Positions 30,754 to 43,953 of a DNA stretch of 64,000 bases are shown in pieces. The stretch lies in the IMG/VR virus record IMGVR_UViG_3300028802_000007, positions 1-64,000 of that record. One strand, 5' to 3'. A model generated the notes under the pieces. The model was not told where the DNA came from and did no database searches. It was given only the letters and a program-made list of their open reading frames with translations. Positions within the stretch are counted from its first letter, which is position 1. Each line of letters opens with the position of its first letter. Position numbers and translations under genes: made by a program. This stretch comes from a virus.

Positions 30754-30932
30754 CCACTGCTGTCGCCGCTCCAGACCACGACCCACGCCCGCTGTACGTC
30801 CTCCGCCTCGAGGAGGCCATCCGCGAACTCGACCGGGTCATCTCTTCGGAGATGCCTCAGATCTCGGCGGAGCATCCCGGCGACCACGGACTCACCCGTG
30901 ACGTGGCCGAGCTCATCGTGTCCCTGCGATGA
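30750..30932 (+). CDS. Hypothetical protein, 60 residues
   Basis: Short helical product (LYVLRLEEAIRELDRVISSE), no Cys. Overlaps both neighbours as ATGA. Function unknown. Confidence 0.55.
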   Translation: MTTAVAAPDHDPRPLYVLRLEEAIRELDRVISSEMPQISAEHPGDHGLTRDVAELIVSLR

Positions 30933-31390
30933 TCGTCGCGATCGCCGGTAGCCGCCGCCTCCCTCGAGGCCAAGCTCCACGCCTCCTGATCCGCTTCCTC
31001 GACAACCTCGAGGAGGGCGACCGGGTCATCGTCCGCACGCCCAAGCACGGGCCCCCCGGGCCCTTCGAGCACGATGTCATGGCGCTGTGCGAGATCCTGG
31101 ACATCACGGTCGAGACCCTGTCGCCGGCTCCGACCATCACCACACCCGGTCGAGCGTCGGTGTACTTCCGTGACATCGAGATGGTCGAGCACGCCGACCT
31201 CGTCCTGCTCTTCTTCACGCCGGAGGAGGCGGTCGAGGGCTACAGCGGCACCGCCCACCTGATGGACAAGGCGCTCGACGCGGATCGTCCGGTGTACGCC
31301 TACACGGTGGGAGCCGACGGTCTGGTGTGCCGGGTGGGAGAGCATGACCCCGACGACCTGTTTGCTGGCCGAGTGCCGTTCGTACCTTGA
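30929..31390 (+). CDS. SLOG/YspA-like Rossmann protein
   Basis: The 153-residue product begins MIVAIAGSRRLPRG, the GSR loop of SLOG (YspA/LOG/DprA-like) proteins. It then has DRVIVRTPKHGPPGPFEHDV, a later YFRDIEMVEHADLVLLFF and GYSGTAHLMDKALD, which fit the R-x(n)-D and GT-x(n)-A nucleotide-binding elements. SLOG domains bind or sense nucleotide-derived ligands and are frequent in conflict systems. It is the last gene before the Y RNA array; the array's -35 box overlaps its stop codon. Whether it works with Ro is unknown. Confidence 0.6.
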   Translation: MIVAIAGSRRLPRGQAPRLLIRFLDNLEEGDRVIVRTPKHGPPGPFEHDVMALCEILDITVETLSPAPTITTPGRASVYFRDIEMVEHADLVLLFFTPEEAVEGYSGTAHLMDKALDADRPVYAYTVGADGLVCRVGEHDPDDLFAGRVPFVP

Positions 31391-31416
31391 CATGATGGTG
31401 GCACGACCACTATCGT
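31387..31416 (+). promoter_or_regulatory. Promoter of the Y RNA-Ro unit
   Basis: TTGACA at 31387-31392, 18 bases, then TATCGT at 31411-31416 (four of six to TATAAT). The expected start, six or seven bases after the -10, is 31422-31423, exactly where the terminal stem of the first RNA begins. This is the strongest promoter match in the window. Confidence 0.65.
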
Positions 31417-31421
31417 TCGCC

Positions 31422-31495
31422 GTCTGCGGTGCGAAGCTCAGGGTTACTCCGTTGCTTGAAACGACAAACACCTTGGGCGTCTTGTCCTCGCAGAT
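31422..31495 (+). ncRNA. Y RNA-like RNA 0 (no tRNA-like module)
   Basis: Terminal stem GTCTGCG (31422-31428) pairs with CGCAGAT (31489-31495). Inside lie the shared internal-loop strands GTGCG (31429-31433) and GTCCT (31484-31488). A second stem pairs GCTCAGGGT with ACCTTGGGC (nine pairs, two wobbles), and a short hairpin (31451-31465) caps it. The 74-base RNA lacks T- and D-arms. It begins at the predicted transcription start and shares the GGGTTACT motif (31441-31448) with the other RNAs. Confidence 0.75.
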
Positions 31496-31504
31496 AACTG
31501 AATA

Positions 31505-31655
31505 GGTGACGGTGCGTAGGCCGGGGTTACTTCAGGATCTTTGTGTCGCGGGTTCGAGTCCCGCCGGACTGGCTAGGGAGTTCGCTCCCCATGGTCCGTA
31601 GCTCAGCGGTAGAGCAAAAGACAAACGGTTCCTCGTCCGACCAGTCCTCGTCGCC
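31505..31655 (+). ncRNA. Y RNA-like RNA 1 with permuted tRNA-like module (YrlA type)
   Basis: Terminal stem GGTGACG (31505-31511) with CGTCGCC (31649-31655); internal loop GTGCG (31512-31516) and GTCCT (31644-31648). The core is tRNA-like but permuted: T-arm GCGGG-TTCGAGT-CCCGC (31548-31564), acceptor strand CGGACTG (31565-31571), a GGGAG-TTCG-CTCCC cap (31576-31589), acceptor strand TGGTCCG (31592-31598; all seven pairs form, two wobbles), TA, then D-arm GCTC-AGCGGTA-GAGC (31601-31615). The anticodon arm is replaced by the Ro-binding stem. This is the layout known for bacterial YrlA RNAs. Confidence 0.85.
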
Positions 31656-31662
31656 AATAACC

Positions 31663-31808
31663 GTGCTGATGGTGCGACAGAAGGGGTTACTTCCCTTTCG
31701 TAAAGGTGAGGTCCCAGGTTCGAGTCCTGGTCGGGGTTCCGCAAGGTCCCCCGGTAGCTCAGTTGGCAGAGCGCATTGTGTCCTCTTCGATCTGGTTCTC
31801 ATCGGCAC
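31663..31808 (+). ncRNA. Y RNA-like RNA 2 with permuted tRNA-like module (YrlA type)
   Basis: Terminal stem GTGCTGATG (31663-31671) with CATCGGCAC (31800-31808), nine pairs; internal loop GTGCG (31672-31676) and GTTCT (31795-31799). T-arm CCAGG-TTCGAGT-CCTGG (31714-31730), acceptor strand TCGGGGT (31731-31737), a GCAA tetraloop cap (31741-31744), acceptor strand CCCCCGG (31748-31754, six of seven pairs), TA, D-arm GCTC-AGTTGGCA-GAGC (31757-31772). An extra hairpin (CTTT-CGT-AAAG, 31695-31705) sits in the 5' arm. The helix next to the internal loop has a bulged C (31678), a feature known from Ro-binding stems. Confidence 0.85.
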
Positions 31809-31817
31809 TACATCAAC

Positions 31818-31919
31818 GTCAGCGGTGCGCTGATCGGGGCTACTTCTTGGATCGAACACCGGCTTGCCGGTGGAGGGTTTCGACCACCCTCTGACCTCGG
31901 ACACCTAGTCCTCGCTGAC
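31818..31919 (+). ncRNA. Y RNA-like RNA 3 in the Ro mRNA leader
   Basis: Terminal stem GTCAGCG (31818-31824) with CGCTGAC (31913-31919), seven perfect pairs; internal loop GTGCG (31825-31829) and GTCCT (31908-31912). The core holds the GGGGCTACTTC motif (31836-31846), hairpin CACCGG-CTTG-CCGGTG (31857-31872) and a T-arm-like hairpin GAGGGT-TTCGACC-ACCCTC (31873-31891). No D-arm. It ends 21 bases before the Ro start codon and ten before its AGGAG, so it may work as a free RNA or as a leader element. Confidence 0.75.
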
Positions 31920-31940: not shown

Positions 31941-33515
31941 ATGGTCAAGCTCGCTGCCCGCACGAAGCGGGCTCCCACCGCGCCGGTCAAGACCACGAAG
32001 GGCCGGAAGCCGGACACCATCACCGCGAACGCTGGTGCTGGGTTCAGTCGCGATGCCAAGTCGGAGCTGTTCCTCCTCGCGGTGACCAACATGGTCAGCG
32101 AGGACACCTTCTACGAGCGCGGCAAGAACCGTGACAAGCGGTTCGTGGACCTCATCCGTCAGGTCGCCCTCGAGGACGCCGACTGGATCGCTCGCCTCGT
32201 CCCGTACCTGCGCGACACCATGAACATGCGATCCGCCAGCATCGTCATGGCCGCCGAGCTCGTCCACGCCAAGCTGACCCGGCCCGTGGCCGCGTCCAAG
32301 ATCAGCAACCGCACCATCATCGACTCCGCCATCAAGCGGGCCGACGAGCCGGCGGAGATGCTGGGCTACTGGATGAGCGAGTGGGGCAAGACCTTCCCGC
32401 AGCCGGTGAAGCGCGGCGTCGCCGACGCTGTCGTGCGCCTGTACAACGAGCGCAGCCTGATCAAGTACGACGGTGGCGACAAGGCCATCCGCTTCGGCGA
32501 TGTCATCGACCTCACCCACCCGGAGGCCAAGGCCCCGTGGCAGTCGAGCCTGTTCAAGTACGCCCTCGACGACCGCCACAAGCGGGACATGCCCCTGCCG
32601 TGGTCGGCGGAGGCAGCGCCGCTGCCGACGGTGCAGGCCAACCGCAACGCGATGATGCTCGACCAGGAGACGTTCCGGGCCTTCTTCTCCGCCGACTGGG
32701 TGGAGAACGCGGGCCTGACGTGGGAGCAGGCGTCGTCCAAGTACGGCAAGCTCGACGCGAAGTTCTGGGAGGCGATGATCCCGAACATGGGCATCTTCGC
32801 CATCGTGCGGAACCTCCGCAACTTCAGCGATGCCGACATCAGCACGGCCACCCAGGATCTGGTGCGGGCCAAGCTGTCGGACGAGGAGGCCATCCGCAAG
32901 TCGCGGATGTTCCCGCTCCGGTTCATGGCCGCGTACACCGCGACCAAGAGCCTGACCTACGCCCGCGAGCTCGAGGTCGCCATCGACACCGCCACCTCCA
33001 ACGTGCCTGCCCTCAAGGGCAAGACGCTGGTGCTGGTGGACGTGTCCGGCTCCATGGACGCTGCCCTGTCGGCCAAGTCCGACGTGAAGCGGTTCGCCGT
33101 GGCGTCGGTCTTCGGCGCGGCTCTCGCGATCCGTGCGGAGGACGCGGACCTCGTGGCGTTCTCGGACACCACAGCGGTCATCCCGACCCGCAAGGGTGAC
33201 TCCGTGCTGGTGACGGCCAACGCCATCCTCCAGGCCCTGCCTCACGGCGGGACCCAGACGTGGCAGTCGGTTCAGCGGACCTTCAAGGGTCACGACCGGA
33301 TCGTCATCATCACCGACGAGCAGGCCGACATGGGCTACACCGCCGGGTCCATCCCCGACGGGGTGAAGCTGTACACCTTCAACGTGGCTGGCTACCGTGT
33401 CGGCCACGCGCCTTCGGGCAAGAAGGACAAGTACACGTTCGGCGGGCTCACCGACGCGGCCTTCACCGCGATCGAGCTGCTCGAGCGGGGAACCGACCAG
33501 ACCTGGCCGTTCTGA
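31941..33515 (+). CDS. rsr: TROVE/Ro60 protein (Rsr)
   Basis: The 524-residue protein has a TROVE domain (about 30-345; IPNMGIFAIVRNLRNF at 280-295 is the family signature) forming the HEAT-like ring that binds Y RNA and the ends of misfolded RNAs. A von Willebrand A domain follows, with an intact MIDAS: DVSGSMD (367-373), GGTQT (436-440) and ITDEQ (457-461). In bacteria Rsr with Y RNA joins exoribonucleases in RNA decay and survival under stress. AGGAG is six bases before the ATG. The upstream array of four Y-like RNAs makes a full phage Ro-Y RNA system. Length matches cellular homologues. Confidence 0.95.
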   Translation: MVKLAARTKRAPTAPVKTTKGRKPDTITANAGAGFSRDAKSELFLLAVTNMVSEDTFYERGKNRDKRFVDLIRQVALEDADWIARLVPYLRDTMNMRSASIVMAAELVHAKLTRPVAASKISNRTIIDSAIKRADEPAEMLGYWMSEWGKTFPQPVKRGVADAVVRLYNERSLIKYDGGDKAIRFGDVIDLTHPEAKAPWQSSLFKYALDDRHKRDMPLPWSAEAAPLPTVQANRNAMMLDQETFRAFFSADWVENAGLTWEQASSKYGKLDAKFWEAMIPNMGIFAIVRNLRNFSDADISTATQDLVRAKLSDEEAIRKSRMFPLRFMAAYTATKSLTYARELEVAIDTATSNVPALKGKTLVLVDVSGSMDAALSAKSDVKRFAVASVFGAALAIRAEDADLVAFSDTTAVIPTRKGDSVLVTANAILQALPHGGTQTWQSVQRTFKGHDRIVIITDEQADMGYTAGSIPDGVKLYTFNVAGYRVGHAPSGKKDKYTFGGLTDAAFTAIELLERGTDQTWPF

Positions 33516-36142: not shown

Positions 36143-37723
36143 CTACGCCGTGCGGGCTTGGCAGTACACGGTTATTCCGCCGGCTGGGGCCGACGTAAGC
36201 GTGAACGAGGCGGCGTCAGGATCGGTCTCGACGAAGGCCACACCCTTGACCAGCGGGGTCATCGTGCCGCCCGATCCGGTGTAAACCTGAAGCGTGCCCG
36301 GGATGTACGGCGGGACGATGTGGAAGAGGGTGCGGCTGCCGTTGGCGGCCTCGACCGCCTCGTCCGCGTAGTACGAACCGTACGGGTAGGAGTCGGACGT
36401 GGCGTCGGTCCCGACGACCGGCTGGGGCTGGGGCTTCGGGCGCATCTTGCGGAGGAACTGCCACCACCAGACGGGGTCCGACATCTGGAGGCCGAACGTG
36501 CCCTCGAACTGGACGAAGGTCACCGGATCGTTGTCGGGGTTGTCCGATGGCAGGGTCGGGAAGGTGATCTTCACCTGACGGAGCGGGACGTTGATGGTGT
36601 ACGGCGTGGCTCCGTTGTCCTCGCTGAAGGACCACAGGTTGAGGGTCGTGACCATGCCCGGGATGAGCTGCTGTCGCTCGCCGCCGGAGATCGGCACGTC
36701 GTGGCTGAACCACGTCAGGACGAACTGGCGATCGGGGTTGACCAGGCCCTGCGCTCCTGTCACGGGCGACGTGCCAGAGGTGGAGCCGCTGATGAGGGCG
36801 TTGGCTCGAGCGGTCACCTCAGCCGAGCTCTTGAAGCGGTCCTCGCCCGGGTGGTTCTCGGCCAACTGCCAGCGACCGTTGTCGGTGATGCTGGTCGCGT
36901 TGCTCTTGTGGGCCATCACGATGGTGCCGTTGGTACCGATAGGCGATCCGCCCCAGATGAAGACCTCGTTGATGACCGACGTGCCGTCGTCGGTGACGGT
37001 GCCGTCACGCCAGCCGATGAAGCTGGTGCCGTCGGGGATGTCGCTGAAGCCCCACGGTGCGGCGGTCGTCTGGAGGGCCAGCCAGTTGAGGTTGGCTCCG
37101 CCGTCCACCCAGTAGATGCAGGCGAGCTGGCCGTGGATCGTGGTCTCGATGACGAGCGAGTCGAGGACCGCACGCATCGTCTCGCCCTGGCTGGGCCAGA
37201 CGTACTTCACGGTGAAGTCGTTGACGTGATCGACCTTGGTGGTCACATCGAGCGTGCCGCCACCACTGAAGCCCAGATCGAAGTACTGCGCGTAGAGGGC
37301 GATGATGTGCTTGTCGTTGCCGTTGGCACCGACGCCGACCGACGGGATGATGTGGGTGTAGTCGGTGGTCCGGCGGAGGACGCGCTTGTCGAGCAGGTGG
37401 TTGTAGTCCACCCCGTCGAGCTGCCATCGGCGACCGGTCACGGGTTCTGACGTGTCGAGCGCCGGAAAGAAGAAGTCGCGGGTGACCTGAGTCACGAAGC
37501 CGCCGAACATCTGGACGGTGCCCAAGGTCATCTCGAGCCTGCCACCCGTGACGAACGAGTGGGTCTGGTTCGGGTCCTTGACCGTGATGTGGAAGGACCC
37601 GGGAACCGCCGCAGCTTGGAGCTCGAAGTAGGCGTCGATGTAGGTGCAGGACGTGGTGATGTCAGTCGTCGTGCCCGACGGGTCGATGTAGATGATGGTG
37701 ATGTCTTCGGGCACCTTGCTCAT
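36143..37723 (-). CDS. Tail-tip/baseplate protein
   Basis: The 526-residue product shares a domain with the giant protein encoded upstream: GVDYNHLLDKRVLRR here and GGDYNRFLDKRIL there, plus NEVFIWGG versus NDAIVWGAGKG and NGRWQLAEN versus HGRWQYGNF. This domain type occurs in phage distal-tail/baseplate hub proteins. The C-terminal 80 residues form a separate beta domain (GTLQVYTGSGGTMTPL). It overlaps the end of the giant gene by four bases and is expressed with the tail operon. Confidence 0.8.
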   Translation of the reverse strand: MSKVPEDITIIYIDPSGTTTDITTSCTYIDAYFELQAAAVPGSFHITVKDPNQTHSFVTGGRLEMTLGTVQMFGGFVTQVTRDFFFPALDTSEPVTGRRWQLDGVDYNHLLDKRVLRRTTDYTHIIPSVGVGANGNDKHIIALYAQYFDLGFSGGGTLDVTTKVDHVNDFTVKYVWPSQGETMRAVLDSLVIETTIHGQLACIYWVDGGANLNWLALQTTAAPWGFSDIPDGTSFIGWRDGTVTDDGTSVINEVFIWGGSPIGTNGTIVMAHKSNATSITDNGRWQLAENHPGEDRFKSSAEVTARANALISGSTSGTSPVTGAQGLVNPDRQFVLTWFSHDVPISGGERQQLIPGMVTTLNLWSFSEDNGATPYTINVPLRQVKITFPTLPSDNPDNDPVTFVQFEGTFGLQMSDPVWWWQFLRKMRPKPQPQPVVGTDATSDSYPYGSYYADEAVEAANGSRTLFHIVPPYIPGTLQVYTGSGGTMTPLVKGVAFVETDPDAASFTLTSAPAGGITVYCQARTA

Positions 37724-40700
37724 GGGAGGGCTCCGTTCGTGATGTAGGCCATTGTGACGTCGGCGCTCTCCGTCAAGGCTGCGTGCATCGTGATGAGACC
37801 GAAGTCGTCAGCGGTCAGGGTCCACGCCGATCCGCTCTGGAGGATGCCGTTGACGCTGACGAGGGCCGTCCCGGTCAGGATGGAGTTGGTCGCCTGCCAC
37901 AGGGAGTTCACCGGGTACGAGCCGCCCGACGGGGTGTCCAGCGGGGTCAACACGTCGTTCAGCAGGTGCGTGCCTGACGGCACGGAGCCGGGGCCTGACG
38001 GCGGGATGACGGTACAGGTCCCGACTTGGATCTCGCCGATGTTCGTGGTCCCGCTCGTCGCCCCGTTCTGGTTGACGAGGTAGACCCGGTTGTAGTTGTA
38101 GTGCAGCGAGTCGATGGCAACCGCCGCGCCCGCTGGCTTGCTCCCTGCCGAGTCGGGCCAGACGGTGAGGATGCCTGCTGACCCGTCGTACTCGGCGGTG
38201 TACCACGCGCCCGCGATCCAGGAAGAGCCACCTCCGACGTCGGCGAGGCTGAGCGTAAAGATCTGGGCCTGCACGGTCATGCGGATGGTCAGGCCGCCGC
38301 TTGGAGAGAACTGGAAGTACATCTCGATCCACCCGAAGCCCAGCGTGTTCTCGATCCTGAGCAACCACTGGGTGGAACCGCTGCCTCCACCGTTCGGGAG
38401 AGCGGTCGCCATGAGCCGCATGCTCAGGGTGAACCCCGGGTTGGCGAAGGGGACCACGTTCGAGTTGTAGTAGCCAGCGACGCCCAGGCTCTCGGCGAAG
38501 AAGGACGCACCGTTCACGCCGCTGTTCCCGCCACCGACGAACTGGGTCGTATACGCCGTGCCAGACGAACTCGTCCCGATCGTGTTCGTGCTGGTGGTCC
38601 GGTTGAAGTTGTCCCAGACGTAGACGTCAGCGCAGTTGGAGCCGCAGGGCATCCCCTCGTAGTCGAAGCCGATGGGTCCCCAGAAGGTGTCGGTGGTGTA
38701 GTTGGAAGACGACTGAGTGTTGAACCGCGTGTAGCCACCAGTCACGCCAGCCTGCGTCAACTCGACCATCCAGTCGGCGGGCTCGCTCGTGCCCCACCAG
38801 ACCTTGCCCCGACTGACGCTGGCGCTGTACTCCCACTTCAGGTTGATGTTGACGTTGGTGGGCACGTCGGGAATGCCCACAGAGGCAGAGCCCGCACCTG
38901 CCACGGCGAGCTGGAGCTCGCACCCAGCAGGGCTGATCTCCAAGGTCATCCTCCGCTCGCCGCCGGGGACCGGGGAGAAGGGGGCGCTGATCTGCTGGAC
39001 GACGAGACTGAACGCCACTGCGTGGCTACCGAAGGCTGTGCCGTATCGGATGAAGGTCGTACAGGTGAAGTCGTCTCGGAACGGGGCCGCGAAGACCGAG
39101 CCACTGTCTGGGATGTAGGCCATCACGGAGTTAGTGGTGCCACCGCTGTTGAGCGGGACTGCCGCGATCCCGTTCGATACAGCGATGCTGGGGTCACCCG
39201 AACCGTTCACCCACGCTGGACCGCCTTGACTCGGAATGCCCCAGCCGCCCGTCACGACGCGCTGGAAGTTGTCGAAGTTGGACCCGGAACAGGCGCTGAT
39301 GCCGTTGATGTTGAGCTCGTACAGCCGGACGGTCTGGCCGATGTTGGGCAGGAAGAACCAGAAGGTGTTCAGGGGCATCCCGGTGAAGGCCGTGCTCCCA
39401 CAGTCGAGCATGAAACCGGCGGGCTCCGACGCACCCTCCGCCCAGACGTTGGCCTGGACCTGACCACCAGTGATGACCATGTGGAAGTTCCAGATGCCGT
39501 CGTAGGCCAAGTAGGCGGCACCCGTGTTGATGCTGTCACTGACGGCTCCGCCACCCGCATCACTTCCGTACACGGCCCAGTACCCGTCGCCGCCGTCCTT
39601 GTCGATCCAGAAGTCGAAGCCCATATAGTCGTTGAAGAGTTGCGGATTGCCCTCGGACCAGTAGAACTGCGGCTGGGCGTTGTGGTCACCCTCCGTCGTC
39701 GTGTTGGCGATGGACATCTGCCACGTCATATCAACCGCAGACAGGCCCAGGCTGTCCAGCATCATCGTGATGTCCGACCCGCCTGAGCCTGTGTTCTGGG
39801 CCTGCTCAGGGTTGGCCTCAGCGAAGCCGCTGTACACACGGGTGGCACGGTTGATGGCATCGATCTCGTACTGAAGCTGCCCGGGCCCTGCCACCCACAC
39901 CCTGCCGGAGTCGCTCGTGGCCCAGCCACTCACCACAGAGCGGCTGAAGGTGTCGGTGATGCCGCAGTCAGCTTCGGTGCAGCCGGTCTCCTCCTGACCA
40001 CCGACCGGGAGGGGCGTCCCACCGCCACCGCCCAGACCCGGGTAGCCGGTCGGCAACCACGGATCGAACATGCTCCAGACCGCGTCGATCTCCCAACTCA
40101 ACTGGAGGGTGAAGAGCGGGTCGTCCGGCGTCGGCCAGGTGATGGTCATGGTGCGGATCGGGAGGACATCGTCGTGGGTGTCAGGAGCTCCCGGGTAGGC
40201 GGGCGGCATGTAGAACTGGGAGTTGTGGATGTTGACCACGTCGCCGACCGCGAAGACCGGCTCGTAGGTGCGAACCTCGATCGAGCGCATGGGGTTCTTG
40301 GCACCGCGCAGCGAGGCAGGGGAGCCCTCGACAGCCGCTCGAGCCACGGCGTTGGCGGTAGCCTGCTTGTAGATGCCGGAGGTGAAGTTGCCGTACTGCC
40401 AGCGGCCATGGTCGCTCTGGCTGGGGGCACTCTGGTAGCGGGACTTGACGATCTGATTGCTGCCCTTGCCAGCGCCCCAGACGATCGCATCGTTGATCAT
40501 CTCGGTCGCGTCCTCGACGATCCGCGCCTCGCGGTAGCCCACGTCCATCGCGCCCGACGGAGTGTCGGTCAGGGTGTACGGGCTGCTGACGAGGTCGGCA
40601 TCGACGTAGGTCACGACCTTCTGCGGGGTGACGTAGAAGATGGCTCCCGTGTCCCACGACAGGTGGAGCAGCACGTCTCGCAACGTGAAGCCACCTTGGG

Positions 40701-43700
40701 CCACGTTGCCACCGGTCTTGGCCGTCACGCCCTTGATGTCGAGGACGCCCTGACCGACGTGCTGGAAGTTCTTGGTGAAGCCGTCGGTGTCGAAGAACGG
40801 CCAGAGGTTGTTGAGGATGGTGTTGTCGGCGGTCCCAGCGGCGTAGTCCCACGTCCTGCCCGGGTGGGCAGAGTCGTGGAGGATGCGCTTGTCGAGGAAG
40901 CGGTTGTAGTCGCCGCCGACGATGTGGAAGATCCGGGCATCACTCAGCGGGGCCTTCTGGACCGGGAAGGGGAACGCTCTGGTGACCAGCAGGACCCAGC
41001 CGGCCCAGCGCAGGATGCCGCCGATGTAGAGCTCGATCACGTCGCCGGTCTCGAAGGTCAGGTCGTGGTCCTGGTCCACCACGTCGAACTCGCACTCACC
41101 GGTCTGGGCGTTGGTCTTGGCGCTGAACTTGGCCGTCTTCCAGATGACGTGGCCTCGAGACATCTCGACGCCGTTGATGTAGATGCGGGTCGGCACACCG
41201 GTCAGCGGCAGCGTCCCGTTGCCTCCGCCGGACCCACCGCCACCGCCAGATCCGCCACCGCCCCCGGTGCCCGGGATGAACCAGTTGTAGTCGATGGTGA
41301 ACGAGGGCTGGTACGTCAGGTTGATGAGGGCGTTGGCGGTGAAGGTGCCACCGAAGGTGTAGGCGAAGCGGGCGTCAGCGGTGAACGACCCGGTGCGGGT
41401 GCTCTTGAAGAGCGCGTTCGCCGTGAACGTGCCCGTCCGACTGGCCCTGATGGTGGCAGAGGCCCTGAAGTAGCCCTGCGTGATGAAGGCGTCGGCGGTA
41501 TAGGAGCCCGTCCTCGAGGCCTTGATGACGGCCCTGGCCGTGAACGAGCCGGTGCGGGTCGCTCTGATGTAGGCGTCGGCGGTGAAGCGCCTGCTGGCGA
41601 TGACCGCGTTGAGCAGGACTCTGTTGGGGGTGATGCCATAGAGCGCGAAGTTGTCGATCTTGCTGACTTCGCTACCCTCAGGGGAGTAGTAGAAGTCGAG
41701 GAAGGGAACCCCGTTGTTGACCGGGCCCACCTTGTCGTTCATCCGACCCGACGTCAGCGGCGACGACGGCCTCGCAGAGCCGACCTTCCAGACGCGCATC
41801 TCGACGTTCTGGAGAGCGTCGTAGACGAGCTCCGCCGTGTACCACGAGCTCGCATCCAGCGCGAGGGTGGCGTCGGGCACGTTCGGGGAGAAGGACCACT
41901 GACTGGTGCCGACACGCCAGTCACCGGACGTACCGTCCGCCGCGACGTACATGTAGACCGGAGTCGAGGGGTCGTCGAGGTTGATGCCGTACGCCGGGTG
42001 GGCGTTGGACTGGCTCGCCAGCGGCGGCACCCAGAAGTCGAACTGGACGGAGCCTGCTGTCGGACGCGCCCCGAAGCGCCACGACGAGTAGTTGTAGTCG
42101 GCTGGGTGGCCCGTTGGGTGAGCCGGCAGGACGATGCTCGCCCCATCGACGAAGACGTTGTCTGCCGACGACGTGGAGGTGTACGAGTCGTCGTTCGACC
42201 AGACCCACGGAGCCCCAAGCGATCCTGTCCCGGGCCCGACCGACCGGTTGAAGTCGTCACTGAGGACGACCGCGAAGGACTGGGTGATGGTGGCGAGGCG
42301 GATGGCGTCGGCGGTGAAGTAGCCACCGCTTGGGATCTTCAGCCAGGCGTTCGCCGTGAACGAGGCGGTGACGCTCTTCTTGATGGTCGCCGACGCGGTG
42401 TAGGAGCCGGTGCTGATGATCTTGATCCACGCAGACGCCGTGCGCGATCCGGTCTGGGTTCGGAAGCGAACCGCGTTCGCGGTGTACGAACCGGTCTGGG
42501 TGCGCTTGCGGATCGCGTCCGCCGTGAAGGTCGCGGTCTGGGTGCGCCGGGTGAAGGCATCTGCCGTGAACGAGCCGGTGCGGGCGGCGAAGATGACAGC
42601 GTTGGCGGTCAGACTCGAGGTCTGGTTCCGCAGGACGACGGCATTCGCCGTGTACGACCCGGAGCGGGTGACACCGATGACAGCGTTGGCCGTGAAGGAA
42701 CCGGATCGGCTGGCGCGGATCACGGCGTTGGCGGAGAAGGAGGACGCCCCGGACACGAAGAGCTGGGCGTCGGCGGTGAAGGACCCGGCCCGGGTCGCCT
42801 TCAGGACGGCATTCGCGGTCAGGGAACCAGTGACGGGCCTGAGGAGGAACGCGTCCGCCGTGAAGGAGCCAGTGGCAGTGCGCTGGATGACCGCGTCGGC
42901 TGTCGTCGATCCGGTGCGGGTCGCCTTGACCACGGCGTTCGCCGTGAAGGAGCCAGTGCGCGTGGCCTTGATCAGGGCGGCTGCGGTGAAGCTCCCCGTG
43001 CCCGTCGCCTTCAGGATGGCGTTCGCGGTGAAGGTGCCACCCGGGCCCACGCCAGTGCTGATGTAGGCATCGGCGGTGAGGTTCAGCGGCTTGGCGATGA
43101 ACGAGGCACCGATGAGGGCCTTGCGGTTCGCGGCACCACCGGTCGAGCCGATGGTGTACGAGCCTGAAGCAGCCGTCGCGATCTGGTAGTTGACCCCGAT
43201 GGGCGGACGACCGCCGGACTCGAAGTCCTCCGTCATGGAACCAGCCGGGGTCATGCCGACCGGGACGGTGTCGTTCCTCTGGAGGAGGCCGCTGACGAGG
43301 AGGATGACGTCGGCGAGGCCCGGGGTGATGGACTGCGTGCCAGCGGTGGTGAACGAGGACGTCCCGACGAAGGTGTCGAACGCCTTGATGTTCGAGAACT
43401 CCATGACGTCGAACGCGACGTTGTTGGCAGTGCCCGACCAGGTGACCGTGGTCGTCGCCGACAGCGATGTCGTGACGAACTGGTACCACATCACGATGGG
43501 CCAGTCGCCCGCCGTGACACCCGTGTACTCGCGGTCGATCTGTGTCCACGTCCCGTTGTTCAGGGACGCCGTCTCCGCCGTGACGCCGTTCCGCTTGGCG
43601 GAGGCCGCGACGAGGAGGTTGCCGATGGTCGGCGTGGCACCTAGCGTGATGGAGACGTTGGCCGACGCGGTGCCGCTGGACCCGTTGCTCTGGACCTTCG

Positions 43701-43953
43701 TGGCCGCCGTCTGGGAAACCGTCTTGAGGACGGCGTTGGCGGTGAAGGAGGCAGACGTGCCCAGCACCTTGATCACCGCGTTGGCGGTGAAGACGTTGAA
43801 GATCCTTGGGGCTAGGACCTCGACGGCAAGCTGAGTGACCCGGGCGTTGGGTACGCCGTTCTCGAGGGTCTCGGCTGCAAGCTGTGTGACTCGAGCGTTT
43901 GGAGTGCCTAGCTCGAGTGCCTCGATGGCGGCCTGCGTGACGCGGGTCGCCAT
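37720..43953 (-). CDS. Giant tail protein: repeats, baseplate-hub domain, lectin-like domains
   Basis: The 2077-residue protein is modular. Residues 1-60 have three RVTQLA(A/V)E units; about 85-290 a beta domain; about 300-560 copies of a 14-residue unit (GSFTANAVVKATRT). Next comes a LamG/concanavalin-like domain starting SDDFNRSVG (about 570-770), more repeats, and a Gly/Ser linker at about 900. A baseplate-hub domain like 36143-37723 lies at about 910-1310. Three further DxFxR-type lectin-like domains (DTFSRSV, DNFQRVV, DNFNRTT) and a C-terminal beta domain complete it. It probably forms the tail tip and binds host surface sugars. Confidence 0.85.
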   Translation of the reverse strand: MATRVTQAAIEALELGTPNARVTQLAAETLENGVPNARVTQLAVEVLAPRIFNVFTANAVIKVLGTSASFTANAVLKTVSQTAATKVQSNGSSGTASANVSITLGATPTIGNLLVAASAKRNGVTAETASLNNGTWTQIDREYTGVTAGDWPIVMWYQFVTTSLSATTTVTWSGTANNVAFDVMEFSNIKAFDTFVGTSSFTTAGTQSITPGLADVILLVSGLLQRNDTVPVGMTPAGSMTEDFESGGRPPIGVNYQIATAASGSYTIGSTGGAANRKALIGASFIAKPLNLTADAYISTGVGPGGTFTANAILKATGTGSFTAAALIKATRTGSFTANAVVKATRTGSTTADAVIQRTATGSFTADAFLLRPVTGSLTANAVLKATRAGSFTADAQLFVSGASSFSANAVIRASRSGSFTANAVIGVTRSGSYTANAVVLRNQTSSLTANAVIFAARTGSFTADAFTRRTQTATFTADAIRKRTQTGSYTANAVRFRTQTGSRTASAWIKIISTGSYTASATIKKSVTASFTANAWLKIPSGGYFTADAIRLATITQSFAVVLSDDFNRSVGPGTGSLGAPWVWSNDDSYTSTSSADNVFVDGASIVLPAHPTGHPADYNYSSWRFGARPTAGSVQFDFWVPPLASQSNAHPAYGINLDDPSTPVYMYVAADGTSGDWRVGTSQWSFSPNVPDATLALDASSWYTAELVYDALQNVEMRVWKVGSARPSSPLTSGRMNDKVGPVNNGVPFLDFYYSPEGSEVSKIDNFALYGITPNRVLLNAVIASRRFTADAYIRATRTGSFTARAVIKASRTGSYTADAFITQGYFRASATIRASRTGTFTANALFKSTRTGSFTADARFAYTFGGTFTANALINLTYQPSFTIDYNWFIPGTGGGGGSGGGGGSGGGNGTLPLTGVPTRIYINGVEMSRGHVIWKTAKFSAKTNAQTGECEFDVVDQDHDLTFETGDVIELYIGGILRWAGWVLLVTRAFPFPVQKAPLSDARIFHIVGGDYNRFLDKRILHDSAHPGRTWDYAAGTADNTILNNLWPFFDTDGFTKNFQHVGQGVLDIKGVTAKTGGNVAQGGFTLRDVLLHLSWDTGAIFYVTPQKVVTYVDADLVSSPYTLTDTPSGAMDVGYREARIVEDATEMINDAIVWGAGKGSNQIVKSRYQSAPSQSDHGRWQYGNFTSGIYKQATANAVARAAVEGSPASLRGAKNPMRSIEVRTYEPVFAVGDVVNIHNSQFYMPPAYPGAPDTHDDVLPIRTMTITWPTPDDPLFTLQLSWEIDAVWSMFDPWLPTGYPGLGGGGGTPLPVGGQEETGCTEADCGITDTFSRSVVSGWATSDSGRVWVAGPGQLQYEIDAINRATRVYSGFAEANPEQAQNTGSGGSDITMMLDSLGLSAVDMTWQMSIANTTTEGDHNAQPQFYWSEGNPQLFNDYMGFDFWIDKDGGDGYWAVYGSDAGGGAVSDSINTGAAYLAYDGIWNFHMVITGGQVQANVWAEGASEPAGFMLDCGSTAFTGMPLNTFWFFLPNIGQTVRLYELNINGISACSGSNFDNFQRVVTGGWGIPSQGGPAWVNGSGDPSIAVSNGIAAVPLNSGGTTNSVMAYIPDSGSVFAAPFRDDFTCTTFIRYGTAFGSHAVAFSLVVQQISAPFSPVPGGERRMTLEISPAGCELQLAVAGAGSASVGIPDVPTNVNINLKWEYSASVSRGKVWWGTSEPADWMVELTQAGVTGGYTRFNTQSSSNYTTDTFWGPIGFDYEGMPCGSNCADVYVWDNFNRTTSTNTIGTSSSGTAYTTQFVGGGNSGVNGASFFAESLGVAGYYNSNVVPFANPGFTLSMRLMATALPNGGGSGSTQWLLRIENTLGFGWIEMYFQFSPSGGLTIRMTVQAQIFTLSLADVGGGSSWIAGAWYTAEYDGSAGILTVWPDSAGSKPAGAAVAIDSLHYNYNRVYLVNQNGATSGTTNIGEIQVGTCTVIPPSGPGSVPSGTHLLNDVLTPLDTPSGGSYPVNSLWQATNSILTGTALVSVNGILQSGSAWTLTADDFGLITMHAALTESADVTMAYITNGALP
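42270..43085 (-). repeat. 42-bp tandem repeats encoding 14-residue units
   Basis: About 18 imperfect copies of a 42-base unit encode G-S-F-T-A-N/D-A-V-I/V-x-x-x-x-T on the minus strand; a shorter array lies at about 41300-41610 in the same gene. The protein pattern is conserved while the DNA copies have diverged. The same unit recurs about 60 times at 60.7-63.4 kb. Confidence 0.85.

Follow-up and report, generated by a model that had tools for sequence, protein, structure and literature searches.

In vertebrate Y RNAs, the Ro site reads GGUCCGA, and the ninth nucleotide, a bulged C, is critical (PMC11277228; PMC4030889), and residue H187 of animal Ro60 has been reported to be essential for Y RNA contact (PMC4030889). 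Animal Y RNAs also carry the motif UUA(U/C)C, which has been reported mainly for its part in DNA replication (PMC4450293), and animal and bacterial Y RNAs have been described as not homologous (PMC4726728). The bacterial YrlA RNAs (Rfam RF02553; Salmonella, Mycobacterium smegmatis, and phages) have been described with D, T, and acceptor arms resembling those of transfer RNA (tRNA), and known bacterial tRNA-like modules bind PNPase (PMC8394870). Here, we analyzed the first 64,000 nucleotides (nt) of the IMG/VR virus record IMGVR_UViG_3300028802_000007 (hereafter, the window; the source record spans 131 kb), in which four RNA-like units at 31422-31919 lie just upstream of a Ro60 gene at 31941-33515. 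Judged by their sequence, the four are phage Y RNAs, a known kind, and we consider it likely that they serve the phage Ro60, each joining a constant Ro-side part to a variable effector module.

The Ro60 protein of the window (524 amino acids, plus strand) has TROVE and vWA domains (Pfam PF05731, E 2.3e-15), and sequence profiles match it to Xenopus Ro (1yvp) and Deinococcus Rsr (2nvo), in agreement with a TROVE HEAT ring joined to a vWA domain. Its H193, the counterpart of animal H187 in the alignment, does not vary among the 16 sequences compared. Each of the four RNAs, which are all on the plus strand like the elements within them, is closed by a base-paired terminal stem of 7 to 9 pairs, beside which GTGCG (starting at 31429, 31512, 31672, and 31825) stands opposite GTCCT or GTTCT (31484, 31644, 31795, and 31908) and is followed by GGG(G)YTACTYC (31441-31450, 31523-31533, 31683-31693, and 31836-31846). 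These motifs had been listed by a first-pass annotation of the window, and all of their coordinates proved exact. The pattern GTGCG-N3..15-GGNTACT has exactly four matches in the 64 kb, all within the array, compared with a shuffle mean of 0.28 and with 0 of 100 shuffles reaching four. The annotation took the second motif for one conserved unit; its invariant core is TACTYC, not the GGGG, which forms the 5' strand of an upper stem (S2) of 7 to 8 bp, and UACUUC sits directly above this stem, at the root of the variable module.

RNA 1, a hairpin type of ~74 nt (31422-31495; terminal stem 31422-31428/31489-31495), has GTGCGAAG (31429-31436) as the 5' side of its internal loop, a candidate Ro site whose 3' side ends with GTCCT (31484-31488); S2 follows at 31437-31444/31470-31477 (8/8 pairs) and, after it, the collar TACTCC, a UACUYC variant (31445-31450). 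In the tRNA-like RNA 2 (~151 nt, 31505-31655; terminal stem 31505-31511/31649-31655), the loop strand GTGCGTAG (31512-31519) has GTCCT (31644-31648) as its partner, S2 forms 6 of 7 pairs (31520-31526/31631-31637), TACTTC occupies 31528-31533, and the module comprises a T arm, an acceptor stem closed by a hairpin, and a D arm, without an anticodon arm. Such an arm is present in RNA 3, which is likewise tRNA-like (~146 nt, 31663-31808; terminal stem 31663-31671/31800-31808): the segment TTCCCT-TTCGTAA-AGGTGA (31691-31709; 7-nt loop UUCGUAA, threonine type, CGU) begins at the TTC of TACTTC (31688-31693), above S2 at 31680-31686/31782-31788 (7/7 pairs) and the loop strand GTGCGACA (31672-31679) with its partner GTTCT (31795-31799). 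RNA 4 is branched and lacks a full tRNA-like part (~102 nt, 31818-31919; terminal stem 31818-31824/31913-31919); its loop strand GTGCGCTG (31825-31832) is partnered by GTCCT (31908-31912), and TACTTC (31841-31846) follows an S2 with 6 of 7 pairs (31833-31839/31895-31901). The S2 registers were learned from other RNAs: single-sequence folding of RNA 2 was no better than that of shuffles (z -0.43) and RNA 4 folded without S2, so we used the comparative register instead.

Comparison with other Y RNAs, the kind of check that the first-pass annotation had proposed, covered 80 bacterial and ~170 viral Ro loci and shows both motifs to be conserved far beyond this phage. The annotation had not known these sequences from other Y RNAs, but they are not peculiar to the four RNAs; within this Ro lineage, they are standard in Y RNAs of actinobacteria and phages. 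The loci comprised 80 actinobacterial genomes, 80 viral contigs whose Ro belongs to the same lineage, named actinophages, and proteobacterial-type viral contigs, and hexamers were counted in the 1200 nt upstream of Ro, on the gene's strand versus the opposite strand, with no motif assumed; the loci share ancestry, and the counts are not independent events. TACTTC was the top strand-biased hexamer in the cellular set (79 of 80 loci, versus 9 on the opposite strand), in the viral set (75 of 80, versus 8), and in the nonredundant proteobacterial-type viral set (62 of 70, versus 16), and the same count downstream of Ro gave nothing comparable. In each of the three sets, a single GNAG-to-TACTTC distance dominates, 12 nt (140, 123, and 117 cases). 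A position profile trained on 183 cellular (bacterial) RNAs only picks exactly the four sites of the window, at 22.6 to 28.9 bits with the next best at 4.9; of the five RNAs of a second array that this virus carries, it misses two, in which one or two extra bases lengthen the spacing. Further Ro genes with TACTTC beside them are those of Xanthomonas, Caulobacter, Rhizobium, Bacillus (phage G), and crAss-like phages, as well as that of the archaeal virus HGTV-1, which reaches 24.2 bits with the actinobacterial profile. The haloarchaeal plasmid Ro loci (L328-L330) have tRNA-like sequences upstream and no clear UACUUC or UUAUC, and their Y RNAs may differ.

The anatomy of the shared part emerges from 409 distinct stem-supported RNAs (206 cellular and 203 viral), in which the terminal stem is followed by GGUGCG-M-A-G, S2, GG-N-UACUUC, the module, the second strand of S2, CUU-G-W-U-C-U, and the closing strand of the terminal stem, with GGUGCGNAG and CUUGWYCU conserved beside that stem. 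GCG and most of UACUUC were preset by the search pattern, whereas no such constraint applied to GGU, AG, GG, or the 3' motif as a whole, and G-W-U-C-U was recovered from pairing alone; its general form is GAUCU, of which the GTCCT and GTTCT of the window are minority variants. To locate S2, we used mutual information in 208 RNAs, where the register i+j=-6 gives 62% pairing versus a shuffle maximum of 53% and a summed information of 1.55 versus 0.44. In 23 of the 208, the first G of GUGCG is replaced by A, with U opposite in 18 of those, and the internal loop thus probably ends in a G-U or A-U pair.

This virus carries two Ro systems. Besides the Ro60 gene of the window, it has another, accompanied by five Y RNAs at 106.3-106.9 kb, and this diverged array keeps the Ro-side part. 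RNA 3 of one array and RNA 3 of the other have the stem, GTGCG, TACTTC, and GTTCT in common and differ in their modules: an anticodon arm and tRNA-like parts in one case, a hairpin type in the other. Since TACTTC is kept despite this swap, UACUUC travels with the Ro-side part. The second system belongs to a duplicated block of several kb (104.5-110 kb, locus L025; 77-84% identity) that includes a methylase end, a 153-amino-acid open reading frame, the array, Ro, and the open reading frames that follow.

Among the 409 RNAs, lengths fall into two main classes, ~60 to 80 and 110 to 150 nt. An anticodon arm directly follows UAC in 106 of 234 tRNA-like Y RNAs and consists of UUC plus two bases, a 7-nt loop, and a partner strand; in the tRNA-like class, UUC most often lies 27 nt from T54 (79 RNAs), then 26 (34 RNAs), as in tRNA, and the loops have U33 in ~80% and a purine at position 37 in ~85%. 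With anticodon and T arms present, Y RNAs are sometimes called tRNAs by tools. Those labeled as tRNA by ARAGORN or by depositors include L001:3637-3710 (Asp), L006:3496-3565 (Pro), L007:593-682 (Thr), and L205:2211-2278 (Thr); ARAGORN called no tRNA in the window.

The described RNAs closest in layout to those of the window are YrlA, which share with them an adjoining Ro60 gene, a terminal stem with an internal loop, and a UAC triplet right after the second helix (Rfam consensus ...GGGGAA-CUAC...). RNAs 2 and 3 alone also resemble YrlA in having T, closed acceptor, and D arms in permuted order, and a covariance search of the window with RF02553 matched these two below the gathering threshold of 69 bits (31540-31622, 39.1 bits; 31710-31772, 31.5 bits) and gave no match for RNAs 1 and 4. 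Other features differ. Window-type RNAs score 31 to 41 bits; their Ro site reads GUGCGNAG/UUGWYCU instead of GGCGAAUG/UUGUCGCC, and their collar reads UACUUC instead of CUACG or CUACAUC; many RNAs of the lineage are hairpin or branched; and about half of the actinobacterial-type tRNA-like RNAs, including RNA 3 but not RNA 2, have the anticodon arm, whereas the Rfam YrlA consensus is open in the anticodon stem. Ro loci linked to RtcR in Pseudomonas and Rhizobium carry CUACAUC or ACUACA, near the Rfam consensus CUACG. Two upstream RNAs of Deinococcus gobiensis, where Ro60 is again the partner, read by eye as GTGGTGAAG...CGG-TTCCTTC, a one-letter variant. The bacterial Ro motif GNCGAAN0-1G does not in its exact form fit GUGCGNAG letter for letter. 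We did not find the two-motif signature described in a full-text literature search for UUACUUC, whose listed matches contained no Ro or bacterial Y RNA paper; the papers that define bacterial Y RNAs lay outside its coverage and may mention it.

With respect to animal Y RNAs, the Ro site reads GGUGCGA here and GGUCCGA in vertebrates (and GGCGAAUG in YrlA), and NUACUUC stands at the same place as the animal UUA(U/C)C. Exact UUAUC occurs in a few cases, namely, in two RNAs of mycobacteriophage Myrna (GGGCCGGAUG..CGG-UUAUC and GGGCCGAACG..CGG-UUAUC) and at the Picosynechococcus Ro locus. The Y RNAs of animals, including the nematode sbRNAs (RF00019), have neither a tRNA-like module nor an anticodon arm, and an equivalent of the bulged C9 is not proven in the phage RNAs. 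As the vertebrate covariance model finds nothing, we do not claim common descent and treat the apparent similarity in order, spacing, and letters as resemblance rather than homology. Actinophages contain two Ro lineages, that of the window (95 records) and that of mycobacteriophages and Picosynechococcus (339 records), and their collars differ, with NUACUUC in the former and UUAUC in the latter, of which few were read. A search with the Myrna Ro gave three matches in 396 actinobacterial genomes, too few for statistics, and the Picosynechococcus Ro had no match in viral contigs.

These data are most readily explained if the constant part (terminal stem, internal loop GUGCGNAG opposite CUUGWYCU, upper stem of 7 to 8 bp, and NUACUUC collar) faces Ro60, with the hairpin, tRNA-like, and branched modules projecting from it. 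The internal loop GUGCG/GUCCU would most likely be the grip of Ro60, as in other Y RNAs, and UACUUC, at a fixed distance above the loop, is most likely part of the same platform, where it could be a second point of contact for Ro or could determine how the module exits the ring. In established Ro ribonucleoproteins, Ro60 binds the lower stem, and the module tethers another enzyme, such as PNPase, or imitates tRNA. The phage modules would likewise tether or mimic other RNA enzymes for the phage, PNPase being the one bound in known bacterial cases. The first-pass annotation had joined both motifs into one candidate Ro-binding signature, which is supported for GTGCG/GTCCT, found at the place of the known Y RNA Ro site, but not in the same way for TACTTC, which is not beside the Ro stem; because TACTTC stands one helix of 7 to 8 bp above it, its Ro binding is something that we infer. 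We read UACUUC as a Ro-side collar because Ro is the only partner common to all these RNAs, and a direct or indirect role on that side is, in our estimate, about evenly balanced against its absence. Several observations weigh against the interpretation: Rfam at its gathering threshold reports no Y RNA in the window or its relatives; the vertebrate Y RNA model (RF00019) matches 0 of 20 virus records at E values up to 10; the Ro contacts of Y RNAs have been described on the lower stem (PMC4726728), away from the collar; and the letters preset in the search exaggerate conservation in some logo columns of the 409 RNAs, a flaw of which the hexamer and spacing tests are free.

Alternatively, UACUUC could be recognized not by Ro but by a partner of the module, such as PNPase, and be kept because every module needs that partner. 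The position of UACUUC at the module root and the binding of PNPase by known tRNA-like modules (PMC8394870) fit such an effector-side element, which we nonetheless judge unlikely, since UACUUC persists whichever type of module it accompanies (hairpin, branched, or tRNA-like), in bacteria, in phages of several phyla, and in one archaeal virus, where effectors should differ, and stays when the module is swapped. It is more improbable still that the motif is part of a tRNA mimic, with UUC as the 5' strand of the anticodon stem (positions 27 to 29) serving folding or tRNA-modifying enzymes. UUC does pair with GRR at the expected offset, and the tRNA-like spacing to T54, the 7-nt loop, U33, and the purine at 37 all point that way, but UACUUC is also kept in hairpin RNAs and in about half of the tRNA-like RNAs, all of which lack the anticodon arm, and pairing alone would permit covarying letters, of which few variants are seen.

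A signal of the array at the level of DNA or processing, such as a promoter element or nuclease site, would account for a motif that is strand specific and repeated in arrays; yet each TACTTC lies inside its own RNA, between the S2 strands and at a fixed distance from GNAG, and the promoter-like site does not coincide with it, lying 5' of RNA 1, so that we consider this scenario very unlikely. Even less credible is that the four RNAs resemble each other merely through recent duplication within the phage. Duplication does occur in this record, where a block of several kb is present again at 77-84% identity, but the same motifs are found at hundreds of loci with Ro proteins just 31-57% identical to that of the window, and the hexamer counts across cellular and viral Ro loci refute duplication as the sole cause. 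Extending the Ro-side collar to all Y RNAs is a step that we take only tentatively: NUAY(U)YC directly after the upper stem may be a universal element of Y RNAs, those of animals as well as those of bacteria, phages, and at least one archaeal virus, with a constant spacing from the Ro site below it. It would then be an ancient second Ro60 contact or an element shaping the ribonucleoprotein, and the requirement reported for it in animal DNA replication assays would be later or indirect.

As for the surroundings of the array, its transcription is predicted, and a promoter-like site, TTGACA-18-TATCGT (31387-31416, plus strand, by consensus scan), lies just 5' of RNA 1, and a similar TTGACAT.ATGGTG precedes the second array. 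The 153-amino-acid open reading frame directly upstream (30929-31390) has no Pfam match and is also kept upstream of the second array. Between consecutive Y RNAs, ACAACT(TC) is frequent (49 of 199 spacers, L045-L204) and strand biased in viral arrays, possibly as a processing site. Farther away, on the minus strand, an open reading frame of 2077 amino acids (37720-43953) contains many degenerate TGSFTANAVIKATR-type repeats and probably encodes a tail or fiber protein.

The compact signature described here finds Y RNAs that Rfam and tRNA finders miss or mislabel and, by setting the constant Ro-side part apart from exchangeable modules, opens the partner-choice code of Ro ribonucleoproteins (RNPs) to study. 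It also draws attention to UUAY as one motif that may be common to animal and bacterial Y RNAs. UUAY has been tied to DNA replication in animal work, and its occurrence in bacteria and phages suggests a Ro-related role. As the signature recurs beside Ro60 in hundreds of bacteria and viruses and has a close look-alike in animal Y RNAs, the animal replication motif may have belonged to the Ro machinery since much earlier times.
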